This document shows positions 14,904 to 25,117 of a stretch of 25,213 nt of DNA, piece after piece. Location: positions 1-25,213 of the IMG/VR virus record IMGVR_UViG_3300031629_000073. One strand, written 5' to 3'. This DNA comes from a virus. The notes beneath the pieces were generated by a model that made no database searches, had not been told where the DNA came from, and saw only the letters and a program-made list of their open reading frames with translations. Position 1 is the stretch's first letter, and every line of letters begins with the position of its first letter. Both the position numbers and the translations under genes were made by a program.

Positions 14904-16934
14904 CTATTTAGTTGTTGCTATAAAGACACCATCCCAATCTTCTGGGAGGTCTTGCTTCATCATATATCTACAACGCTCAATCCATATATCATAATAATCT
15001 TCCATTTGGCTATAGAAGCTAACGCGTAACATCTTACATAAATGAATAGCCATCTCAAAATCTTGCTCTTGATAAGCAACGTGCATTTCAGCATGAGCAT
15101 CAACAGAGCTACTGAACATCTTAGATGATAGATCTAATGCAGTATAAATCTCCAATCCTACTGTCTTACCTTTCACAGCAAGTTTATCTAGTTTAAGATA
15201 GAAGAATGATTTCTTTGTTCTCTCGTATGTCTCTGGTCCAACGATCAGCAGTACACCATATGACTTACATGCAGACTCAAGTCTTGCAGCAGTTGATACA
15301 GCGTCTCCAAGGATGTCATATGAATGCCTTGCAGTAGATCCCATCTCTCCGATATAACCTAATCCAGTATTAACACCAGCGCCCATTCCTACAGGAGGTC
15401 TGTCTTGCATGATGTCTTGATCATTAAACGACTTCACGGCCTTGATCATATCTAATGCAGTACGAACAGCAGTATGAGGATGAAGTGGATCATCTATTGG
15501 AGCATTATGAATGTGCATCGAAGCATCGCCGATATACTTGATAACCATTCCGTCTGCATCAAGAATAGGTTGAGTAATAGCATCCATATATCCATTCATT
15601 ATCTGAGTTAATCCCTTTACATCATCACCGAATGATTCACCTAGTGGAGTAAATCCTCTTAGGTCAGTAAAGCATATCGATACTTCTTTCTTCATACCTT
15701 CTTTGATTAGTGCAGGATTCTCTTGTAGCATACGTACGACAGTAGGAGATGCATAGCCTGCAAACTGCTTCTTGATAGCCATCTTCTCAAAGAACTCTTG
15801 TCCGAACTTAACGCCATATACATGAGCAAATACAATGATACTCATAAGCGCAGGTAGTATTGTAAGGTGTAGTTCTGCCCAATTAATGAATGCATAGAAT
15901 GGTAGATATACAACTGATCCGAATGCAACCAGTGATACTAACCAACCAAATCTGATATAAGATAACAATACAATCATCAATCCTAATGCACCAATTGCAA
16001 GGATCTTATACAGCTCACCTAATTGAGGTGTTGATATATTATAATCATCTCGTACAGAAGCAAATGCACTTGATGCAATTTCATGCCCGTACACTGCCCC
16101 AGAGGGCGTAGGAACAGGGTTTGCAATACCTTCTGCAGTAACACCAATGAATACTGTCTTACCTTCTAAATCAGGTATTGTATCTGCCATAGAGTATCGT
16201 GTATGAGTGTAGTTAGGATTGATCCATACACGTGATAAAGCATCTGTCTTGATTATAGGAAAGCCTTTAACTCGTACTGCCACGACACCAAAATCATTAG
16301 ACTTGATCTGATACGTATTAGTTCCTGTGTACAGTTTAAGTATTTCAAGTGTAAGAGAAGGATATAATGTATCACCTACTCTGCTGATCATTGGAAGTCT
16401 ACGAACCACTCCATCCGACTCTGGTAATGTATTAGCAATACCCACTCCTGATACTACTGTCTCGTACTTCTCTAGATTGGCTGCGATGCCACTATACGAA
16501 GGAACGAATGTCTTTGCAGGAGGTCCTACTTCTACTATGCCTGTAGTGTATGCTGATCTACTGCTGGATTTCTCTGTAGGGAAGTGAGATAATATAACAC
16601 CCTGACTAAGATACTGAGTAAACATATCATCCTGTCCACTTCTATCCTCTTCTGGAAATGCCATATTAAATACGATGGCTCCTGCATTAGATAATCTAAG
16701 ACGATGAATTAGATCTGCATATTCATTACGAGGAAATGGGAACTGGCCATAACGAGCCAAAGCCTTCTCATCTATATCAATTAGAACAGATCCTGAATCA
16801 ATTGGTTCTGATATCATAAGCTGATCTGATATCTTCAATTCAATATTCTGTATGATAAGTGGATTAGATACAACTACATATGTGAGTGCTGCAAGTGTTA
16901 TGATAGCCCATAATGGTGATAGTATGTATTTCAT
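14904..16934 (-). CDS. CHASE2-domain class III adenylate cyclase
   Basis: 676-aa membrane signalling enzyme. One N-terminal TM (about 5-23); an extracytoplasmic CHASE2 sensor (about 30-300, with LIDIDEKAL, GQFPFPRNEYADLI and GAIVFNMAF); three TMs (about 308-375); a cytoplasmic cyclase domain (about 415-600). Metal ligands are D424 (CFTDLRGFT) and D470 (KYIGDA). K466 and D540 fit ATP selectivity, so cAMP is the predicted product. R551 is kept, but the usual catalytic Asn is Ser (S547 in GDAVSTAAR). A C-terminal helical tail follows. Its start overlaps the FecR stop (ATGA), with AGGA 10 bp upstream. FecR-CHASE2-cyclase neighbours are common in bacteria but unusual in a phage. Confidence 0.92.
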   Translation of the reverse strand: MKYILSPLWAIITLAALTYVVVSNPLIIQNIELKISDQLMISEPIDSGSVLIDIDEKALARYGQFPFPRNEYADLIHRLRLSNAGAIVFNMAFPEEDRSGQDDMFTQYLSQGVILSHFPTEKSSSRSAYTTGIVEVGPPAKTFVPSYSGIAANLEKYETVVSGVGIANTLPESDGVVRRLPMISRVGDTLYPSLTLEILKLYTGTNTYQIKSNDFGVVAVRVKGFPIIKTDALSRVWINPNYTHTRYSMADTIPDLEGKTVFIGVTAEGIANPVPTPSGAVYGHEIASSAFASVRDDYNISTPQLGELYKILAIGALGLMIVLLSYIRFGWLVSLVAFGSVVYLPFYAFINWAELHLTILPALMSIIVFAHVYGVKFGQEFFEKMAIKKQFAGYASPTVVRMLQENPALIKEGMKKEVSICFTDLRGFTPLGESFGDDVKGLTQIMNGYMDAITQPILDADGMVIKYIGDASMHIHNAPIDDPLHPHTAVRTALDMIKAVKSFNDQDIMQDRPPVGMGAGVNTGLGYIGEMGSTARHSYDILGDAVSTAARLESACKSYGVLLIVGPETYERTKKSFFYLKLDKLAVKGKTVGLEIYTALDLSSKMFSSSVDAHAEMHVAYQEQDFEMAIHLCKMLRVSFYSQMEDYYDIWIERCRYMMKQDLPEDWDGVFIATTK

Positions 16935-17977
16935 TCTTGATATATCCTTATGCTGTTACTGGATCCCCAGTCTAAAGTATCGAAGCTGATTTCTGATGCA
17001 CCTTGAGTGATCTGTAGTCTTATTCCTGATTCTATTCTGAATCGTATATCTATTGACTGATTGCCTGCAATACGAATTACTCTTGCAATGGGCTCTTCAA
17101 TAATAGTGTATATCTGAGACGTATCATTAAGTCCATGTATACGTCCATCTCTCTCACCTAGGAATGGATCAAACAATACGTTTGCTAGTAGATCGAACCC
17201 TAACGGGTCAACGTCTAGTTCTGACCAATCTAAGTCATCATCCATCTCTAATAAATCTATATCTAACCCATCAAATTTAAGCCAATCAATACCATGAGCT
17301 TTCTTATTAGCTAACTCTAATTGTTCTTTGATCTTCTTTGGAGGAGATATAATCATTAGGTTATTGATTATATTTAAATCTATCTTGAGTAATACTGGTT
17401 TGGTGGGAGCAAATCCACGAGCAACAACAGCAGTTGCTTGGAAAGCTACATTCATAAGTACCATTCCCATATCAGATGATACTTCAATCTCACCGACTGA
17501 TCCATCTACATTAGGTAGAAGTATTATTGTAGATCCACCCAGCTCATTAACTGTCATAGCAAATGCAGTTCCACGTACTGCAATGGATGCAGAGGGAGTT
17601 GATATAGATACGTTTGCGGGATTCTTAGCTATAAAGCCAGAAGCATACTTAACAGTACCCATTGCTATTTTAAGACCCAGGGTACCTGTTTTCGTTTCAG
17701 GATCATACACGAAATCATCTATCACTAATTCAGAATGCTCTGATACTCGTACTTGCGTATCATCGTCGAATGTTATACCGACTACTCCTTTTGCAGTCTT
17801 CACATAATCATCCATTTCAACACCCTGCTCACTCACTACATCAAATACTTCAGTGTCTCTCTTAATACTAGAAGCACCTTCAAGTTCTGTTATAGAACCT
17901 ATACTTGCATTAGTCTGATTGGGTAATAGTAATAGTCTGATTGCTACCACTAAGATCAAGATCAATCGTGTTTGCAA
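16931..17977 (-). CDS. FecR-domain periplasmic protein
   Basis: 348 aa with a signal peptide (hydrophobic 5-18, likely cleavage after TNA, residue 24). The FecR domain spans about 50-145, with VGITFDDDTQVRVSEHSEL and the hallmark TPSASIAVRGTAF (128-140). A very acidic stretch (about 229-262, rich in D, L and E) and a beta-rich C-terminus follow. There is no further TM, so it is probably periplasmic or outer-membrane associated. The start is TTG 17977, supported by a perfect AAGGAG at 9-bp spacing, which makes the gene overlap the curlin-like gene by 68 bp in another frame. It overlaps the cyclase start by 4 bp, so FecR and cyclase are probably made together as sensor and partner. Confidence 0.85.
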   Translation of the reverse strand: MQTRLILILVVAIRLLLLPNQTNASIGSITELEGASSIKRDTEVFDVVSEQGVEMDDYVKTAKGVVGITFDDDTQVRVSEHSELVIDDFVYDPETKTGTLGLKIAMGTVKYASGFIAKNPANVSISTPSASIAVRGTAFAMTVNELGGSTIILLPNVDGSVGEIEVSSDMGMVLMNVAFQATAVVARGFAPTKPVLLKIDLNIINNLMIISPPKKIKEQLELANKKAHGIDWLKFDGLDIDLLEMDDDLDWSELDVDPLGFDLLANVLFDPFLGERDGRIHGLNDTSQIYTIIEEPIARVIRIAGNQSIDIRFRIESGIRLQITQGASEISFDTLDWGSSNSIRIYQE

Positions 17978-18590
17978 TTAGAGTTGCTCCTTGGTCAATT
18001 GTTACAGTATTAAAGCTTCCAAGTGAAACTATTTTAGCAGAGTGTCCACCTAGGCCAGAACCATATCCGGATTGAGTAAGTGAATATGTATTACTATCGC
18101 CTGTAAGATTCAGATCGATATTTGCTCCGTCTGCGTTTATATCAAACATAAAATCGTTTGTACTACCTAATACAATAGCACTTACAGTTCCATTTGCAGC
18201 AGAAAGTAATCCTGCATCAACATCAAATGTGTTGGATGATCCTGTAAGACTAATTACGTATGCTGAACTATTTGCATTAGCTATCTGTAGATCTACTACG
18301 TTAGCGGAACCAATTTGATCTAGATCTAAAGTAAAACTATTACCGTATATAGAACCGAATATTGAGTTAGTGGATCCTAGCTGATTGATATTAATGTTTT
18401 GATCGTTGCCATTGATTATAAAGTATGGTGATACGTCAAGGGGTTTACCCACTGAGTTATTATCTCCACCAGATTGAGATATGAATAAAGTTAATCCATC
18501 TCCCGCAACCTGATCAATGTACACAGCTTGCTCGCCGTATGTCAACGTCGCTACCATAATTAAAGGTGCTACCATTGTTAGTCTTTTCAT
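17910..18590 (-). CDS. Curlin-repeat protein (CsgA/CsgB-like fibre subunit)
   Basis: 226 aa with a signal peptide (MKRLTMVAPLIMVATLTYG, cleavage near residue 19). The rest is Gly/Ser/Asn/Asp-rich beta repeats with G-S/D-x-N turns, among them QLGSTN, QIGSAN, TGSSN, LGSTN, TGDSN and LGSFN. Two (QLGSTN, QIGSAN) match the curlin Q-x-G-x-x-N pattern; in the others the Gln is replaced by Leu, Thr or Ser. It is a predicted amyloid-type subunit exported through CsgG. ATG 18590 with TAGG 7 bp upstream is preferred over ATG 18605, which overlaps the CsgG end. Only one such subunit is seen; no separate nucleator, CsgC or CsgE. Confidence 0.83.
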   Translation of the reverse strand: MKRLTMVAPLIMVATLTYGEQAVYIDQVAGDGLTLFISQSGGDNNSVGKPLDVSPYFIINGNDQNININQLGSTNSIFGSIYGNSFTLDLDQIGSANVVDLQIANANSSAYVISLTGSSNTFDVDAGLLSAANGTVSAIVLGSTNDFMFDINADGANIDLNLTGDSNTYSLTQSGYGSGLGGHSAKIVSLGSFNTVTIDQGATLIANTIDLDLSGSNQTITITQSD

Positions 18591-18598
18591 TTTAGTGC

Positions 18599-19369
18599 CT
18601 ACCATATTTGTTTTCTTACACCATCCCGTACAATAGTGTGAATAGCTTTCTCAATTGTATATTGTACAGCCCTTGAGGAAGCCTCGTTTCTGTTTTCACC
18701 GCCTTCTATTTCTAAGGTCTGGGTATCCATATCGAAGAACTTAAATGTGGTACTATTAATACCTTTGCTGAGTAATTCCTTCTCTACTAATACTGATAAT
18801 AAAACTTCGGATGTTGCTACAGATACTACTCTCATAGAGACTGTAACATTGTGTTTTGTATATTGCTCGGATACACCTAAACCGAACACACGTAATCCTT
18901 GACCACCTGATATGATATCTGAATCATAACCGATGATACCACCCTCGATGATAATACCTGCATACATCATCGGAGGTAGAGGAGAAGTTGCTGCATCGTC
19001 ATTTCCTATACGAGAGCTTCTAATGATTTGACGTTCTTTCACAAGATTATCAATACCACTGCGTTCTACTACTCGGAACCAACGACCACCTGAATATGAT
19101 TTGAGGCCATTTACAACGTACGAATCTGCGCCCTGAGTAACTGCCATAGACAATGAAGCTGAACCTGATGTAGGTTGTCTCTGACCTGTAAGATCGTTAA
19201 ATGAATATACTGCAACAACAAGCGGCCCATTCTTTGGAGGTTTAGTTGCGTATCTTGATTTTGATACTTCTGATGCATCTTCTCGGCTAACCGGTTGTAG
19301 GTCATGTATTGCTGCAACACTACATCCAGTTAGTATTAATGATGCAATCATTATGCCAATGATCTTCAT
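18599..19369 (-). CDS. csgG: CsgG-like curli secretion channel lipoprotein
   Basis: 256-aa outer-membrane lipoprotein with lipobox LTGC (C16). Strong parallels to E. coli CsgG: NDLTGQRQP (QDETGQFKP), GGRWFRVVERSGIDNLVKERQIIR (SRWFIPLERQGLQNLLNERKIIR), IIEGGIIGYDSDIISGGQGLRVFGLG (IMVEGSIIGYESNVKSGGVGARYFGIG), VSMRVVSVATSEVL and FKFFDMD. It forms the nonameric export pore of type VIII secretion. The eyelet loop here reads PTSGSASLSMAV where E. coli has PYPASNFSTAV, so the pore-lining Tyr and Phe are absent. It is slightly short at the C-terminus. The start overlaps the CsgF stop (ATGA). Confidence 0.95.
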   Translation of the reverse strand: MKIIGIMIASLILTGCSVAAIHDLQPVSREDASEVSKSRYATKPPKNGPLVVAVYSFNDLTGQRQPTSGSASLSMAVTQGADSYVVNGLKSYSGGRWFRVVERSGIDNLVKERQIIRSSRIGNDDAATSPLPPMMYAGIIIEGGIIGYDSDIISGGQGLRVFGLGVSEQYTKHNVTVSMRVVSVATSEVLLSVLVEKELLSKGINSTTFKFFDMDTQTLEIEGGENRNEASSRAVQYTIEKAIHTIVRDGVRKQIW

Positions 19370-19809
19370 AGTCCAAATGCCCCGACTGGAACTGTGACGA
19401 CTGTTACGTTGCCGTCTGCTCCTATGATTTCTAATGATACTTCTGTACCATCATTGGTATAATTAATAACTGTACCTGCTAATTCTATAGTGCCAGAGGC
19501 AGACGGTTCGTCACCAAATAGTGCATCTACTAAAGCTTTTGATAATTGTGCATACACACGAGATTCGAAGTTGTTAATGAATCGTGCAAGGTTAGATGAA
19601 TCTGCTTCTCGTTCAGCTTCTCTTATCTCTTGATCAATCTTATCTTGACGTTCTTTCTTACCCTTCTGAGTGAGCTGTTCTAGTGTTATGACGTGCGAAG
19701 ACCATCCGATACCAGAGAATGATGGATTGCTAAATGCATAAGGATTTGGGTTAGCGCTTATCGTACTCGAAAGTAGTATCAGTGCTATCGTGCTTATCAA
19801 TCTTTGCAT
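19366..19809 (-). CDS. csgF: CsgF-like curli assembly factor
   Basis: 147 aa with a signal peptide (cleavage near ISA, residue 19). The mature N-terminus NPNPYAFSNPSFSG matches the CsgF FRNPNFGG segment that plugs into the CsgG eyelet. A charged linker helix follows (about 45-75), then FINNFESRVYAQLSKALVDALFG (DNFTQAIQSQILGGLL in E. coli) and a beta C-terminus (TVINYTNDGTEVSLEIIG). It couples fibre nucleation to the secretion pore at the cell surface. AGGAAAG lies about 6 bp before the ATG. The start overlaps the preceding gene by 59 bp and the end overlaps csgG by 4 bp. Confidence 0.9.
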   Translation of the reverse strand: MQRLISTIALILLSSTISANPNPYAFSNPSFSGIGWSSHVITLEQLTQKGKKERQDKIDQEIREAEREADSSNLARFINNFESRVYAQLSKALVDALFGDEPSASGTIELAGTVINYTNDGTEVSLEIIGADGNVTVVTVPVGAFGL

Positions 19810-20375: not shown

Positions 20376-20404
20376 TTGACTTTTTGGTGTTTATGTAGTA
20401 TAAT
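20376..20404 (+). promoter_or_regulatory. Sigma70-type promoter
   Basis: TTGACT (20376-20381), 17-bp spacer, TATAAT (20399-20404). Unlike the replication promoters, the spacer has no inverted repeat. Its transcript would start about 20411 and run through the second promoter at 20501 into the gene at 20544, giving a ~130-nt leader. It may also make a short RNA of its own. Confidence 0.68.
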
Positions 20405-20441: not shown

Positions 20442-20543
20442 GTTATAAGCATATAACAAAACAATCTAAGAACAGTGTTCCCTGAACCAGATATATACTG
20501 TATAATAGCTATATTGAATGAGAACAACTGAAGGAAGTATATT
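20442..20543 (+). promoter_or_regulatory. Repeated promoter/leader element, copy 1
   Basis: GTTATAAGCATATAAC (20442-20457), AATCTAAGAA, TGTTCCCT (20476-20483) at the -35 place, 17 bp, TATAATAGCTATATTGAAT (20501-20519) and GAGAACAACTGAAGGAA before ATG 20544. The 19-bp -10 core is identical in all three copies. The -35 hexamer (TTCCCT) is not consensus, which suggests an activator or other factor. Palindrome to -10 distance is 59 bp. Confidence 0.8.
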
Positions 20544-20888
20544 ATGACTAAGTTTAACAAAGCAGATTTTACGTACGAAGGTGGATACTTAATGTATGCA
20601 GGTCCTTATGTAGGTGCAAAGACTTACGAAGAAGTATATGGTGCAGAGAACTGTCACCCATCTCGTATCGGTATGCAACGTGAGGCTTTCATCGCTCGCT
20701 TTAAGTATAAGGGTATTATTTCAAAAGCTGCATTTGTTAAAGAGCTTATCAAGAACCATACAGTTGAAGGTTATCTTGCAGCTTTGCCAGATAGCATGGG
20801 TCCAACCATTGTTTTAGCTAATGCTAACCCAGCATGGTATAATAACCTAGTTGCTAAGTTCGATGCTAAGCATAAGTTGTGGAGGTAG
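20544..20888 (+). CDS. Conserved-looking phage protein of unknown function
   Basis: 114 aa, first gene after promoter copy 1, with AAGGAAG 8 bp before the ATG. Not recognised. It is mixed alpha/beta, rich in aromatic residues (YEGGYLMYAGPYVGAKTYEEVYG), without a membrane segment. The C-terminus is basic (FDAKHKLWR). A strong dedicated promoter suggests early, high expression. It is followed by the next gene with overlapping ribosome site. Confidence 0.78.
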   Translation: MTKFNKADFTYEGGYLMYAGPYVGAKTYEEVYGAENCHPSRIGMQREAFIARFKYKGIISKAAFVKELIKNHTVEGYLAALPDSMGPTIVLANANPAWYNNLVAKFDAKHKLWR

Positions 20889-20891
20889 ATG

Positions 20892-21113
20892 ATGAGTGAA
20901 ATCCAGAAGGCTTTTGAGACTATAAAACAAGCCATGATCGATGATTCTCCTGAAGTGCAAGGCAGTTATGCACATGCATGGCACTGTAATATAGCTATGG
21001 CGGTATATGACGAGTGTACTACAGATATAAGCTCTGAAGATGCTATGAGAATTGGTAACGCAGCTGCAACTAGGTTTATGAAAACATGCTTTGATGTAGT
21101 AACTAAGCAGTAA
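20892..21113 (+). CDS. Small conserved phage protein (WHCNIAMAVYDE type)
   Basis: 73 aa. The segment YAHAWHCNIAMAVYDE...AMRIGNAAATRFMKTCFDV matches a widespread family of small phage proteins with W-H-C-N-I-A-M and A-A-x-R-F-M signatures, whose function is unknown to me. ATG 20892 has GGAGG at 6-bp spacing; ATG 20889 is too close. It belongs to the operon starting at 20544. Confidence 0.75.
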   Translation: MSEIQKAFETIKQAMIDDSPEVQGSYAHAWHCNIAMAVYDECTTDISSEDAMRIGNAAATRFMKTCFDVVTKQ

Positions 21114-21125
21114 TGGAGGATGAAG

Positions 21126-21359
21126 ATGAATAAAGAACGATTTGATAGGCAAATGAATAGTGGCCAGTACGTAATCTGGGCAGGCAATCGTATATACGAG
21201 CTTGAAGAAGCTGATAAGAATATGTCAGAAGAGATTACATCTTTATACGATGAAGTCTCTGCTGCATACGAAGAGATTGGTGAGTATAAGGCATTACTAC
21301 GAGAGGCGAATCAAGTTCAAAGGGTGCTGATTCAAACGCTGGATAAGCTAACATCATGA
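21126..21359 (+). CDS. Small coiled-coil protein of unknown function
   Basis: 77 aa with a long acidic heptad helix (IYELEEADKNMSEEITSL and YEEIGEYKALLREANQVQ), probably a dimeric coiled coil. ATG 21126 is chosen because GGAGG (21115-21119) is 6 bp upstream; ATG 21120 overlaps that site. The stop overlaps the next start (ATGA). Not recognised. Confidence 0.7.
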   Translation: MNKERFDRQMNSGQYVIWAGNRIYELEEADKNMSEEITSLYDEVSAAYEEIGEYKALLREANQVQRVLIQTLDKLTS

Positions 21360-21592
21360 CACCACAGGAGCAGTATGATTACAAGCGGGCATGGTTGCAG
21401 TTAGATAATCAAGTCGTACCAATTCATTCTGACAATCTATGGAAAGCTAAGTTGTGGGTTCGTGAGAACGTCGATCGTACACAATATTCGTTTAGACCGT
21501 ATACTGACATATACGAACATACATACTACTTTGAAATAAGTACTGATGTAGAAGAGTTCAAAAAGTTATATGCATATAACAAAACGATATAA
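21356..21592 (+). CDS. Small protein of unknown function
   Basis: 78 aa, aromatic and acidic (WKAKLWVRENVDRTQYSFRPYTDIYEHTYYFEI). ATGA overlap with the preceding gene. The last codons lie on the 16-bp palindrome of promoter copy 2, so the gene end and the control element share sequence. No known domain is recognised. Confidence 0.7.
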   Translation: MTPQEQYDYKRAWLQLDNQVVPIHSDNLWKAKLWVRENVDRTQYSFRPYTDIYEHTYYFEISTDVEEFKKLYAYNKTI

Positions 21593-21678
21593 GAAAGATT
21601 GAATTAGCTGTTCTCTTACTTCAGGGTATGATGTATAATAGCTATATTGAATCAAGAAACAAACGAAGAGAATATATT
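21565..21678 (+). promoter_or_regulatory. Repeated promoter/leader element, copy 2
   Basis: Perfect 16-bp palindrome GTTATATGCATATAAC (21565-21580), ATATAAGAAAG, a 10-bp insertion relative to the other copies, GCTGTTCTCT (21607-21616) in the -35 place, 17 bp, TATAATAGCTATATTGAAT (21634-21652), and a diverged leader ending GAGAATATATT before ATG 21679. Palindrome to -10 distance is 69 bp, one helical turn more than the 59 bp of copies 1 and 3. Confidence 0.82.
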
Positions 21679-21957
21679 ATGAAAAACCTTGAAATGCAAG
21701 TTGGAATGATCATCAAAGCTAAAGACTTCGGTCATTTGGATTCTGATTTTATCATCGGTGAGATCACTTATGTAAGCTCTACTGGAATGATTGAAGGTAT
21801 GATCACTAAACGTGTAATGGATAATAAGGATGTTACAGGTCTATATGATGATGGTTTTTTCACTACTGTACAAAACGGTAAAACAATAATGGATCGTCCA
21901 GAAGAGCCTCGCTTATCAGAAGTGAGTGTATTCTCGAACGGCGCAACTTTCGGATAA
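21679..21957 (+). CDS. Small protein of unknown function
   Basis: 92 aa. The frame extends upstream to 21628, but that part covers the promoter -10, so ATG 21679 (after GAGAATATATT) is the start. It looks like a small beta-barrel (MQVGMIIKAKDFG, IIGEITYVSSTGMIEGMITK), with a Pro/Glu-rich turn near the end. Not recognised. It is the first gene of a run of four small genes leading to the phosphoesterase and ligase. Confidence 0.74.
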   Translation: MKNLEMQVGMIIKAKDFGHLDSDFIIGEITYVSSTGMIEGMITKRVMDNKDVTGLYDDGFFTTVQNGKTIMDRPEEPRLSEVSVFSNGATFG

Positions 21958-21959
21958 AT

Positions 21960-22148
21960 ATGAAAAATTGGACGGACAACGTAAGTAAATTTAATGCAGT
22001 AGCATGTTATGTATCAGACACACAGTCTGGTATCAATGATAAAACTAGGTTGGCCTGGGTAGTTGATTTCATCTCAGGCAGTGCGTTTCCGTTCAAAGAT
22101 GATACTGGTGTGTATTGGAAATATTCAGACCCAGTAACAAAATTATAA
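21960..22148 (+). CDS. Small protein of unknown function
   Basis: 62 aa, start 2 bp after the previous stop. The ribosome site is weak (GGATAA), so translation may depend on coupling. Composition is ordinary soluble with a WVVDFISG strand. Not recognised. Confidence 0.6.
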   Translation: MKNWTDNVSKFNAVACYVSDTQSGINDKTRLAWVVDFISGSAFPFKDDTGVYWKYSDPVTKL

Positions 22149-22166
22149 CGAATTGAGAATTATATT

Positions 22167-22349
22167 ATGAAAGGTTTACTAGAAACAACAGGTGGCGATT
22201 TTCCAGCTCACACATATTTCATGACTGGAGACGGTGAAGCTATCTATGCTTACTACAACGTCATCCAATCTCAATTTGTAGTTTTTCGGAAGTCGATTAA
22301 GTTCTACAAAGCTGGTCGTAAGTTCTCTAAAGTAAACTTCACAGGATAA
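22167..22349 (+). CDS. Small protein of unknown function
   Basis: 60 aa, with AATTGAGAATTATATT before the ATG, similar to the leaders of the repeated promoters although no promoter core is present here. Aromatic-rich (YFMTGDGEAIYAYYNVIQSQFVVF) and basic at the C-terminus. Not recognised. Confidence 0.6.
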   Translation: MKGLLETTGGDFPAHTYFMTGDGEAIYAYYNVIQSQFVVFRKSIKFYKAGRKFSKVNFTG

Positions 22350-22353
22350 TATT

Positions 22354-22566
22354 ATGATGTTATTAATGGGTTATAAAAGTAAGAAAGAATTGAAGTCATC
22401 TATCGGTGATCAACTTGACTACATGGAAACTTCATTGTTTGGTAATGAGTATTTGAATGATGGAACGTTTCTGGCAGCGCATCGTCCTGCTGTGACTAAG
22501 TTAGGTGGACGTGAGTTCTTTGCAGAAGTTACTATGGTTAATGGCTTAATCGCTAAGGTGTCGTAA
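22354..22566 (+). CDS. Small protein of unknown function
   Basis: 70 aa, beginning MMLLMGYKSKKELKSSIGDQL and ending in a beta-type FFAEVTMVNGLIAKVS. The start is ATG 22354 (ATTATG context, weak SD GGATAAT), with ATG 22357 and a later ATG also possible. It abuts the phosphoesterase start with no gap. Not recognised. The ending is typical of many small phage proteins with a strand-rich tail. Confidence 0.6.
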   Translation: MMLLMGYKSKKELKSSIGDQLDYMETSLFGNEYLNDGTFLAAHRPAVTKLGGREFFAEVTMVNGLIAKVS

Positions 22567-23073
22567 ATGAGTGATGTATTCGTAATATCTGATTGCCACT
22601 TTGGACATAGAAACATTCTTAGATATCGTACCCAGTTTCCTACCATTGAAGAGCATGATGAATTTATTATGGATAATATCGCATCTACCATCGGTAAGCG
22701 TGATGTTCTATGGATGTTGGGGGATTGTTTCTTTACGACAGAATCTCTTGACTTTCTTAGGCGCATCAGCAAGATGTGTATGAAGGTACACTTTGTTATA
22801 GGCAACCATGATACTGACTCAAAAGAGGGTCTTGCTAACATTGGTACTATGATCGAAGAAAAACTGATTGATAAGATCGGTGGAGCATTCAAGGGACGGG
22901 GCGATAGATGGTTTACTCATTGTCCTATCCATCCGGATGAGCTACGTGGTCGTGTAAACATTCACGGTCATGTTCATTCAAATACAATTAAAGATGCACG
23001 TTATTTCAACGCGTGTTGTGAGAACATTGATTATACACCAAGACGTATAAGTGAATGTATATATGAGGAATAA
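22567..23073 (+). CDS. Calcineurin-like metallophosphoesterase
   Basis: 168-aa phosphoesterase with all five motifs of the family: SDCHFGH (D9, H11), LGDCF (D53), GNHD (N80, H81), THCPIHP (H118) and HGHVHS (H135, H137). These ligate two metal ions. Small phage enzymes of this type act on phosphomonoesters, cyclic nucleotides or nucleic acid ends. Given the cyclase and the cREC-like gene in the same window, a cyclic-phosphate substrate is an attractive but unproven possibility. It overlaps the upstream frame of the ligase but not its chosen start. Confidence 0.9.
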   Translation: MSDVFVISDCHFGHRNILRYRTQFPTIEEHDEFIMDNIASTIGKRDVLWMLGDCFFTTESLDFLRRISKMCMKVHFVIGNHDTDSKEGLANIGTMIEEKLIDKIGGAFKGRGDRWFTHCPIHPDELRGRVNIHGHVHSNTIKDARYFNACCENIDYTPRRISECIYEE

Positions 23074-23077
23074 AATT

Positions 23078-24202
23078 ATGGGTGTATCAATGGATGAGTT
23101 GTATAAGCGTGATACTACAGGTAAGGTTCGTGTATGGACTACTGAAGTGGAAGGTGATATGCATCGTACGATCACTGGTGTAGTTGATGGTAAAATGGTT
23201 GTCTCTAAGTGGAGTCAATGCAAGCCAAAGAACGTAGGTAAGGTTAATGAAACGAGCGGTCATGAACAGGCAGTTGCAGAATCAAGTGCTAAACACACGA
23301 AGCAGATTGCGAAGGGATATTTCTCCAACATTGATGACATCGATGGCGGTACTCTTTTCAAGCCTATGCTTGCTAATGATTATGCTAAGCTAAAGAATCC
23401 CATTGACTTTCCAGTGACGTCTCAACCTAAGCTGGATGGTATTCGTTGTATTGCTAAAGCAGATGGATTGTGGACTCGTACAGGCAAACCTCATATGGCT
23501 ATCCCGCACATCTGGGAAGCTGTTAAAGGTATATTCGAAGAGTTTCCTGACATGATCTTGGATGGTGAATTATACAACCATGATCTTAAAGACGACTTCA
23601 ACTCTATCGTATCATTGGTGCGTAAGTCTAAACCTTCAGAAGAAGACCTAGCTGAGTCTGCTAAGTTAGTTCAGTACCATGTATATGATATTCAATACGA
23701 TCTATATGATGAAACAAAGGATCTTAACTTTGTATTCCGTAAGACATCTTATATCAACATCGTACGTAAGCTAGATATTGATTGTATCGTTCCTGTAGCT
23801 AATGCGTTCATTCAGTCTCAGGTCGAGTTAGATGAAGTGTATGCACGTTATATCTCAGAAGGATATGAAGGTCAGATGGTTCGTCTTGACGGTCTGTATG
23901 AGAACAAGCGTTCTAAGAATCTTCTGAAGCGTAAGGAATTCATTACAGAAGAATTTGGAGTGGTTGGAGTAGAGGAAGGACTAGGCAACTGGTCCGGTTG
24001 TGTCAAGCGATTCAACTTAGTTAATGAACATAATGTATATTTCAATGCTGGTGTTCGTGGTACTCAGGTACAATTAGCTGATCTACTTAACAACAAGAAG
24101 TGTCCTGATTGGGCCACATTACGTTATTTTGAATTAAGCCCGGATGGCATTCCGCGCTTTCCTATTGTTATTGATTATGGCTGGGATGGAAGAGACGATT
24201 AA
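23078..24202 (+). CDS. ATP-dependent DNA ligase
   Basis: 374 aa. An N-terminal domain (about 1-85; VRVWTTEVEGD, KPKNVGKVNETSGHEQAVAE, KGYF) resembles the WGR-like N-terminal domain found on many phage ligases. The adenylation domain has motif I KLDG (K118 is the AMP-accepting Lys), RTGK, motif III LDGELYN, motif IV EGQMVR and motif V LKRKEF; an OB-fold C-terminus follows (VGVEEGLGNWSGCVKRF). It seals nicks, including Okazaki fragments. ATG 23078 follows AGGAATAAAATT; the 23051 start lies inside the phosphoesterase and is rejected. Confidence 0.92.
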   Translation: MGVSMDELYKRDTTGKVRVWTTEVEGDMHRTITGVVDGKMVVSKWSQCKPKNVGKVNETSGHEQAVAESSAKHTKQIAKGYFSNIDDIDGGTLFKPMLANDYAKLKNPIDFPVTSQPKLDGIRCIAKADGLWTRTGKPHMAIPHIWEAVKGIFEEFPDMILDGELYNHDLKDDFNSIVSLVRKSKPSEEDLAESAKLVQYHVYDIQYDLYDETKDLNFVFRKTSYINIVRKLDIDCIVPVANAFIQSQVELDEVYARYISEGYEGQMVRLDGLYENKRSKNLLKRKEFITEEFGVVGVEEGLGNWSGCVKRFNLVNEHNVYFNAGVRGTQVQLADLLNNKKCPDWATLRYFELSPDGIPRFPIVIDYGWDGRDD

Positions 24203-24302
24203 ATTATATGCATATAACATTTTAATCTAAGAAAGCTGTTCTCTTTTCTGTTTGGATATAGTATAATAGCTATATTGAATTGAGAACAACTGAGAGAATA
24301 TT
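24203..24302 (+). promoter_or_regulatory. Repeated promoter/leader element, copy 3
   Basis: ATTATATGCATATAAC (24203-24218; inner 14 bp a perfect palindrome), AATCTAAGAAAG, CTGTTCTCT at the -35 place (24236-24244), 17 bp, TATAATAGCTATATTGAAT (24262-24280), then GAGAACAACTGAGAGAA before ATG 24303. It begins directly after the ligase stop. TGTTCTC (24237-24243) and GAGAACA (24282-24288) form an inverted repeat flanking the -10. Confidence 0.82.
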
Positions 24303-24428
24303 ATGGAACAACTACTTATCGCATCAAGAGCATTCGAAGCAACTGGAATTTTTGAAGTTGTATTATATGTAGTATTGGCAGCATCTGTTGTTGGAACAAT
24401 CATCTTATCAAAGAAAGGTTCATTATAA
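24303..24428 (+). CDS. 41-aa single-TM membrane peptide
   Basis: Short frame directly after promoter copy 3: it begins MEQLLIASRAFEATG, then has a membrane helix (about 16-35, FEVVLYVVLAASVVGTIIL), and ends SKKGSL. GAGAGAATATT precedes the ATG. Its stop shares a base pair step with the next start (TAATG). Being first in a promoter-driven operon suggests strong early expression. Positive residues after the TM suggest the C-terminus is cytoplasmic. No function recognised; small early membrane proteins in T4-like phages often act on host envelope or exclusion. Confidence 0.7.
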   Translation: MEQLLIASRAFEATGIFEVVLYVVLAASVVGTIILSKKGSL

Positions 24429-24623: not shown

Positions 24624-24797
24624 ATGTCGAGAGCAGTCGAAGAAGGTATTCGATCTGGTCTTTACAGAGCATTTAAACACTATGATGAGTCTACTCCAGT
24701 AGATGAAGATAGGGAGTTGGATAGAATAGTATCCGTTGTTGCTAATATCACAATGGAGTCTATTCAAGAAGTATTTAATCTCGAAGGAGAGATGTAA
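24624..24797 (+). CDS. Small protein of unknown function
   Basis: 57 aa from ATG 24624, beginning MSRAVEEGIRSGLYRAFKHYDE, with AAAGGA about 10 bp upstream. The in-frame ATG at 24600 lies inside the previous gene. The EEGIRxGxxRAxKH pattern recalls small proteins of marine T4-like phages. It overlaps the next start by one base (TAATG). Helical and acidic. Confidence 0.66.
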   Translation: MSRAVEEGIRSGLYRAFKHYDESTPVDEDRELDRIVSVVANITMESIQEVFNLEGEM

Positions 24798-25117
24798 TGT
24801 CTTACTACATGTACTTGGACGACATCAGGAATCCTACTACAGATCGTGATTGGAATGTAGTTAGATCATATCGTGAGGCAGTTGATATGATCCTTGAGTT
24901 CGGTATGCCTGCATACATTAGCTTTGACCATGATCTTGGTGAAGCTGATATTGAAACTGGCTACGATCTTGCAAAGTGGATTGTCGATCAGGACATGGAT
25001 GGGGCATTTACAATATCAACATTATTCAAGTTCAATGTACACTCTGCTAATCCAGTTGGAGCAGCAAACATTACATCTTACTTGAATTCATATATGAAAA
25101 TGAGGAAAGTATTATGA
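24797..25117 (+). CDS. cREC-like receiver-fold protein (cyclic-phosphate processing type)
   Basis: 106 aa. MSYYMYLDDIRNP (D8, D9) and ISFDHDLG (D44, D46) followed by TGYDLAKWIVD, and HSANPVGAANI near the end, match the cREC group of receiver-like domains proposed to act on cyclic phosphates in nucleotide or RNA repair systems. The start is TAATG-coupled to the gene before and the end overlaps the next gene (ATGA). Biochemical role in phages is not established to my knowledge. Confidence 0.78.
   Translation: MSYYMYLDDIRNPTTDRDWNVVRSYREAVDMILEFGMPAYISFDHDLGEADIETGYDLAKWIVDQDMDGAFTISTLFKFNVHSANPVGAANITSYLNSYMKMRKVL

Follow-up and report, generated by a model that had tools for sequence, protein, structure and literature searches.

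Class I sites for the activator CRP lie at -61.5, -71.5 and -82.5. In phage T4, the activator MotA recognizes GCTT at -30 to -27, a site that replaces the -35 box of middle promoters; MotA and the Mot boxes are limited to a few close T4 relatives (PMC1524935). T4-like cyanophages and the phage Melnitz were reported to lack MotA, AsiA and recognizable middle promoters, with the remark that their middle promoters may be too divergent for detection (PMC5780444, PMC9004378). At the Pm promoter of phage Mu, a Mor dimer binds an inverted repeat with its axis at -43.5 and acts with sigma70 RNA polymerase and the C-terminal domain of the alpha subunit (alpha-CTD) (PMC4390567). Here we describe a promoter element present in three copies (20442-20543, 21565-21678 and 24203-24302) in the IMG/VR virus record IMGVR_UViG_3300031629_000073, of which the stretch of 25,213 nt analysed here is called the window. 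Judged from sequence comparison, each copy probably consists of a sigma70 promoter and, upstream of it, an operator for a putative dimeric activator that may be encoded by the host or by the phage.

A sequence-only reading of the window had reported the three copies at these positions, and a motif scan of relatives found more of them, preceding genes with short leaders. An exact scan of IMG/VR with the start region TATAATAGCTATATTGAAT returned 12 contig stretches, in three of which it is preceded by the conserved upstream block (L007, L011, where this occurs twice, and L015). Scanning for the block followed by a gap of 20-50 nt and TATAATNG yielded 50 stretches, compared with 14 for the reversed block, for which the gaps were scattered; the block alone gave 43 stretches. 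Altogether about 60 distinct copies were obtained from other IMG/VR contigs, no two of them nearly identical. Within each contig all matches lie on one strand, and almost none were found in the control. The longer element-bearing contigs are T4-like where marker proteins allow an assignment, and their DNA polymerases are 44-51% identical to that of the window.

The conserved unit is a 21-bp imperfect dyad, CTTATAACA-AAA-TGATCTAAG, with the operator consensus CTTATAACAAAATGATCTAAG. A profile over 60 copies reads as a weak GTTATAAG followed by CWT and ATAACAAAATRWTCTAAGAA. Cytosine is nearly invariant at core index 4 (59/60) and index 13 (54/60), and index 17 is occupied by G in 41 and by A in 16 of the 60 copies. 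About index 7 the core is imperfectly self-complementary, with z = 4.9 for the axis and z = 5.4 for the self-match on the reverse strand. The upstream half-site GTTATAAG and its counterpart in the core are exactly 21 bp apart, and in some phages a second full or nearly full operator is found 21 bp upstream, namely in L173, L174 and L176 (gaps of 59 and 38 nt) and in G046 (49 and 28 nt). The sequence-only reading had taken a palindrome as the unit. This palindrome is made up of the upstream half-site and, directly adjoining it, the left half-site of the core; its right arm forms the conserved dyad together with the next 14 bp, and its left arm is weakly conserved in relatives. The 16-bp palindrome as operator was dropped on the conservation profile of the 60 copies.

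Downstream of the operator, the -10 region is TATAAT throughout the family, set within TATAATAG, and the best-matching -35 hexamer stands at 17 nt in 49/60 copies. The copies thus show what defines a sigma70 promoter, TATAAT with a -35 hexamer 16-18 nt upstream. In relatives this hexamer is TTGACA (11/60), TGTACA (9) or TTTACA (5), and we therefore regard TTCYCT at the same place in the window as a degenerate -35 and not as a separate site. The match to the -35 consensus averages about 4.2 of 6 positions in the two main classes and reaches just 3 of 6 in the window copies. From the promoter to the ATG the leader has a median length of 27 nt (interquartile range 23-30), and the genes behind it appear to be small and of early or middle type.

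The distance between operator and -10 follows the helical repeat. When the 100 nt next to each of 65 cores were searched for exact TATAAT and any gap was allowed, the hexamer occurred only at 27, 28, 37, 38, 39, 48 and 49 nt. The same series was seen in long contigs scanned together with a reversed-sequence control, and the gaps in contigs retrieved by the core alone agree with it. A scan at 51-81 nt gave one family at 59 nt, a further turn out and the outer member of a tandem pair (59 and 38), and one AT-rich match at 52 nt that is apparently due to chance. A Rayleigh test with a period of 10.5 bp gave R ~0.95 and a nominal p of ~4e-16 for gaps listed by hand from the long-contig scan, and the relatedness of the phages makes the true p larger. 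The dyad axis accordingly falls near -53, -63 or -73. A dyad-symmetric site at whole-turn distances upstream of the -35, the position that marks class I activation, is hence a feature of the family. Whole-turn differences in spacing had been proposed from the three window copies; they hold in a large independent set and fit a protein that works on one side of the helix. The sequence-only reading is supported in its activator-type site and its helical phasing.

In the window, all three copies carry the same 19-mer TATAATAGCTATATTGAAT (starting at 20501, 21634 and 24262); allowing up to 3 mismatches, 0.07 matches are expected by chance, and three exact ones were observed. The distance from the start of the palindrome to TATAAT is 59, 69 and 59 bp, just as had been read. 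The palindrome itself occurs three times with up to 3 mismatches, against a chance mean of 0.45. It is recognizable in every copy, and as a perfect 16-mer it exists in copy 2 only, the variants being GTTATAAGCATATAAC in copy 1 and ATTATATGCATATAAC in copy 3. The further segments quoted as shared hold with exceptions: copy 1 deviates in the TCTAAGAAAG and TGTTCTCT segments, reading TCTAAGAACAG and TGTTCCCT instead, and copy 2 reads ATATAAGAAAG. The segment assigned to two copies, GAGAACAACTGA, is indeed found in copies 1 and 3. All three copies are missed by a plain sigma70 promoter scan.

All parts of the three copies lie on the plus strand. In copy 1, the upstream half-site GTTATAAG (20442..20449), which is the left arm of the palindrome, is followed by the putative 21-bp operator CATATAACAAAACAATCTAAG (20450..20470, axis ~-53), the degenerate -35 TTCCCT (20478..20483), which stands 17 nt before the -10, and the -10 TATAAT with the conserved start region TATAATAGCTATATTGAAT (20501..20519). 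Transcription would be expected to start near 20513, and the first gene (20544..20888) encodes 114 aa with no function assigned. Copy 2 consists of the half-site GTTATATG (21565..21572), the putative 21-bp operator CATATAACAAAACGATATAAG (21573..21593), which has its axis one turn further out at ~-63 and overlaps the 3' end of the open reading frame 21356-21592, the degenerate -35 TTCTCT (21611..21616) and the -10 with start region (21634..21652); it precedes a gene for 92 aa (21679..21957), likewise without an assigned function. Copy 3 starts with the half-site ATTATATG (24203..24210) and the putative 21-bp operator CATATAACATTTTAATCTAAG (24211..24231, axis ~-53), which is located directly 3' of an ATP-dependent DNA ligase gene. 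The degenerate -35 TTCTCT (24239..24244), the -10 with start region (24262..24280) and a gene for 41 aa (24303..24428), again with no function assigned, follow.

According to the proposed mechanism, a dimer would bind the 21-bp operator, which is in many cases accompanied, 21 bp upstream, by an additional half-site or another operator. The bound dimer would contact RNA polymerase from one helix face, probably via the flexibly linked alpha-CTD, and this contact would compensate for the often weak -35 box. The linker of alpha-CTD may let operators shift by whole turns, with axes at about -53, -63 and -73, and at -43 in Pseudoalteromonas phages. In this scheme the operators would stand at whole-turn positions because the contact works from one DNA face only. 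We infer activation rather than repression, the alpha-CTD contact and the timing.

Several observations weigh against an activator acting in this way. The dyad of the window copies is weaker than the family consensus: symmetry holds at 8, 12 and 10 of its 20 positions. A good -35 is present in many relatives, for which activation may therefore be dispensable. The copies inside one phage clade are only partly independent of each other. The contigs sampled are fragments, and they revealed no conserved DNA-binding regulator. In particular, no phage-encoded helix-turn-helix protein common to the element-bearing contigs, which are incomplete, was recognized.

Among other explanations, a repressor operator that shuts the promoters off, whether the repressor belongs to a resident prophage or to the phage and acts early or late, is unlikely. 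Phage repressors typically have dyad operators of ~20 bp in tandem copies, and small Cro-like proteins are encoded by some of the Pseudoalteromonas phages that carry related half-sites (see below). However, the operator lies outside the -35 and -10 and is shifted away by whole turns, which fits contact with polymerase and not occlusion, and the T4-like contigs contain no detectable homologue of the Cro-like proteins. We likewise find it improbable that the block is a UP element, to which alpha-CTD would bind directly with no separate activator. The block is A/T-rich and located upstream of the -35, and a shift of the alpha site by one or two turns is tolerated at some promoters (PMC4390567). 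Yet UP elements are defined by A/T tracts and require no particular G or C, whereas here C is nearly invariant at index 4 (59/60) and 13 (54/60), G prevails at index 17 (41/60, otherwise mostly A), and the 20-bp pattern has dyad symmetry and tandem copies at 21 bp. A site for integration host factor was rejected on inspection of the profile, in which the positions required by this protein vary while the flanking C/G are fixed.

The sequence-only reading had assigned the activator site to TGTTCTCT at the -35, as in MotA-dependent promoters, with the palindrome as an accessory. The -35 of the window is indeed far from the consensus and common to copies 2 and 3, but this assignment has very little probability left, as relatives with the same operator carry TTGACA, TGTACA or TTTACA at that place. 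Furthermore, the TGCTT of a Mot box is absent, and no MotA/AsiA family match was found in the records searched, most of which are genome fragments (PF09114 in 30 records, PF09010 in 22). That phages borrowed an operator of CysB, the host regulator of cysteine and sulfur metabolism, is hardly credible: LysR-type proteins recognize T-N11-A dyads and bind near -65, and the cysP promoter was the fourth-best match to the phage matrix in a 20-kb stretch of MG1655, at a low score, but the block is absent upstream of E. coli cysK, cysP, cysJ, cysD and tauA, and short queries against all E. coli genomes, which have little power, gave no match.

Related half-sites were found outside the T4-like phages. 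The Pseudoalteromonas siphophages Pq0, C7, AL and SL25 each contain several copies of GTTATAASCATATAACNAAAYGKTATT before genes, with none for the control in these records, and share the half-sites (ATAAC-N5-GTTAT) and the axis with the T4-like set. Among 30 sites of Pseudoalteromonas and Vibrio phages, five have their best -10 at 18 nt and four at 28 nt, in phase with the T4-like set (coherence p ~0.001); as these sites were gathered with a pattern modelled on the block, their likeness in sequence is partly selected, while the spacing is unselected. In Vibrio phage 1.262.O the block stands at 28 nt. De novo counting of 8-mers in the Pseudoalteromonas phages was dominated by coding repeats, and the Pseudoalteromonas phage XG4, though T4-like, is without the element. 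In a collection of 84,980 host genomes, the T4-type core plus -10 gave 9 scattered matches in unrelated bacteria, which we take as chance, and a 111-nt consensus query against isolates returned mostly unrelated -35/-10 matches in phages of Gram-positive bacteria. In the Klebsiella N4-like phages HS106 (L167 ~123) and P19-618 (L172 ~501), CTTATAACAAAATGATATAAG is situated 7-8 bases before TTGACA; with E = 0.01 and no clear -10, this match may be due to chance.

The binding protein may be the host's, given that Pseudoalteromonas and Vibrio phages have related half-sites although they are unrelated to the T4-like ones. Exchange of a regulator between phages or a common host protein would both fit this sharing, and we lean slightly to the host. 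The further-reaching proposal, that the operator of one host activator was independently adopted at whole-turn spacings by T4-like myophages, Pseudoalteromonas siphophages and a Vibrio phage, is tentative and on balance doubtful.

The element shares with T4 middle promoters the T4-like phage, the sigma70 -10, the short leader, the weak -35 in the window copies and an activator-type site upstream of the -10. It differs from them in that this site is a 21-bp dyad at about -53, -63 or -73 and the -35 position is retained; TGCTTtA near -30, 11-13 nt before TATAAT, does not occur. Nor is it a T4 late promoter, which has TATAAATA as the -10 box and no -35, whereas here the -10 is TATAATAG and the -35 position is conserved. 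The Mor axis at -43.5 in Mu Pm is close to the -43 phase of the Pseudoalteromonas phages, but the Mor site replaces the -35 at a fixed place, a one-turn move of the alpha site is harmful and the sequence is unrelated, whereas the operator described here occurs at several turns with the -35 kept. Class I CRP activation is similar in having a dimeric operator upstream of the -35 at positions that are whole turns apart; the operator sequence, however, is no CRP site, and the series is spread across promoters of related phages. The window belongs to the same group as the marine T4-like phages, and its genes resemble those of Melnitz and C48C1. Melnitz differs in having a plain TTGACA promoter before its homologue of gene 20544 and in lacking the core within the 36 kb examined, and C48C1 has one weak core match. 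In contig G048, a homologue of gene 20544 (48% identity) is also preceded by an operator, in spacing class 48, two turns from that of gene 20544.

In another contig (L068 5401-5474, minus strand) the gene immediately behind an element promoter is that of a tRNA (Rfam tRNA), and the use of the element thus extends beyond protein genes. Two other element promoters (L024 ~3123, minus strand; L066 ~8680, plus strand) precede a structured leader instead of an open reading frame, with repeats such as GGAACCTTCGGGGTTCACTGCTT and then CTCCC; Rfam gave no match for these leaders, which represent a possible riboswitch or attenuator. The T4-like contig G048 (L117-L120) has Pfam matches to alternative oxidase, heme oxygenase and ferredoxin-dependent bilin reductase. 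In copies 1 and 3 of the window (20478-20530 and 24238-24290), TGTTCYC, which lies in the -35 region, and GAGAACA, which follows the start some 50 bp away, form an inverted pair that copy 2 has not retained. Outside the element, a near-consensus sigma70 promoter (TTGACT-17-TATAAT, 20376..20404, plus strand, 11/12 matches) is arranged in tandem ~100 bp upstream of the promoter of copy 1. The gene cluster under the putative control of the element includes a small protein with a cyclic-phosphate processing receiver domain (24797-25117; cREC_REC, E = 2.5e-24). A curli-type cluster of CHASE2 adenylate cyclase, FecR, a curlin-repeat protein, CsgG and CsgF occupies 14904-19809 on the minus strand and likewise exists in Melnitz.

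No description of the element was found in the open-access papers searched, which proves no absence elsewhere. The comparison suggests that the element may take the place of the T4 MotA system as an activator switch, and it is a candidate for such overly divergent middle promoters in a different branch of marine T4-like phages. For the early-to-late order of expression in T4-like phages without MotA and AsiA, it provides a concrete candidate switch that sequence alone suffices to detect. The natural series of spacings (~28, 38 and 48 nt, with tandem arrays to 59) constitutes a ready-made helical-phasing experiment. A host protein is suggested by what the element has in common with unrelated Pseudoalteromonas phages; if true, a single host regulator would gate the early or middle genes of several phage lineages.

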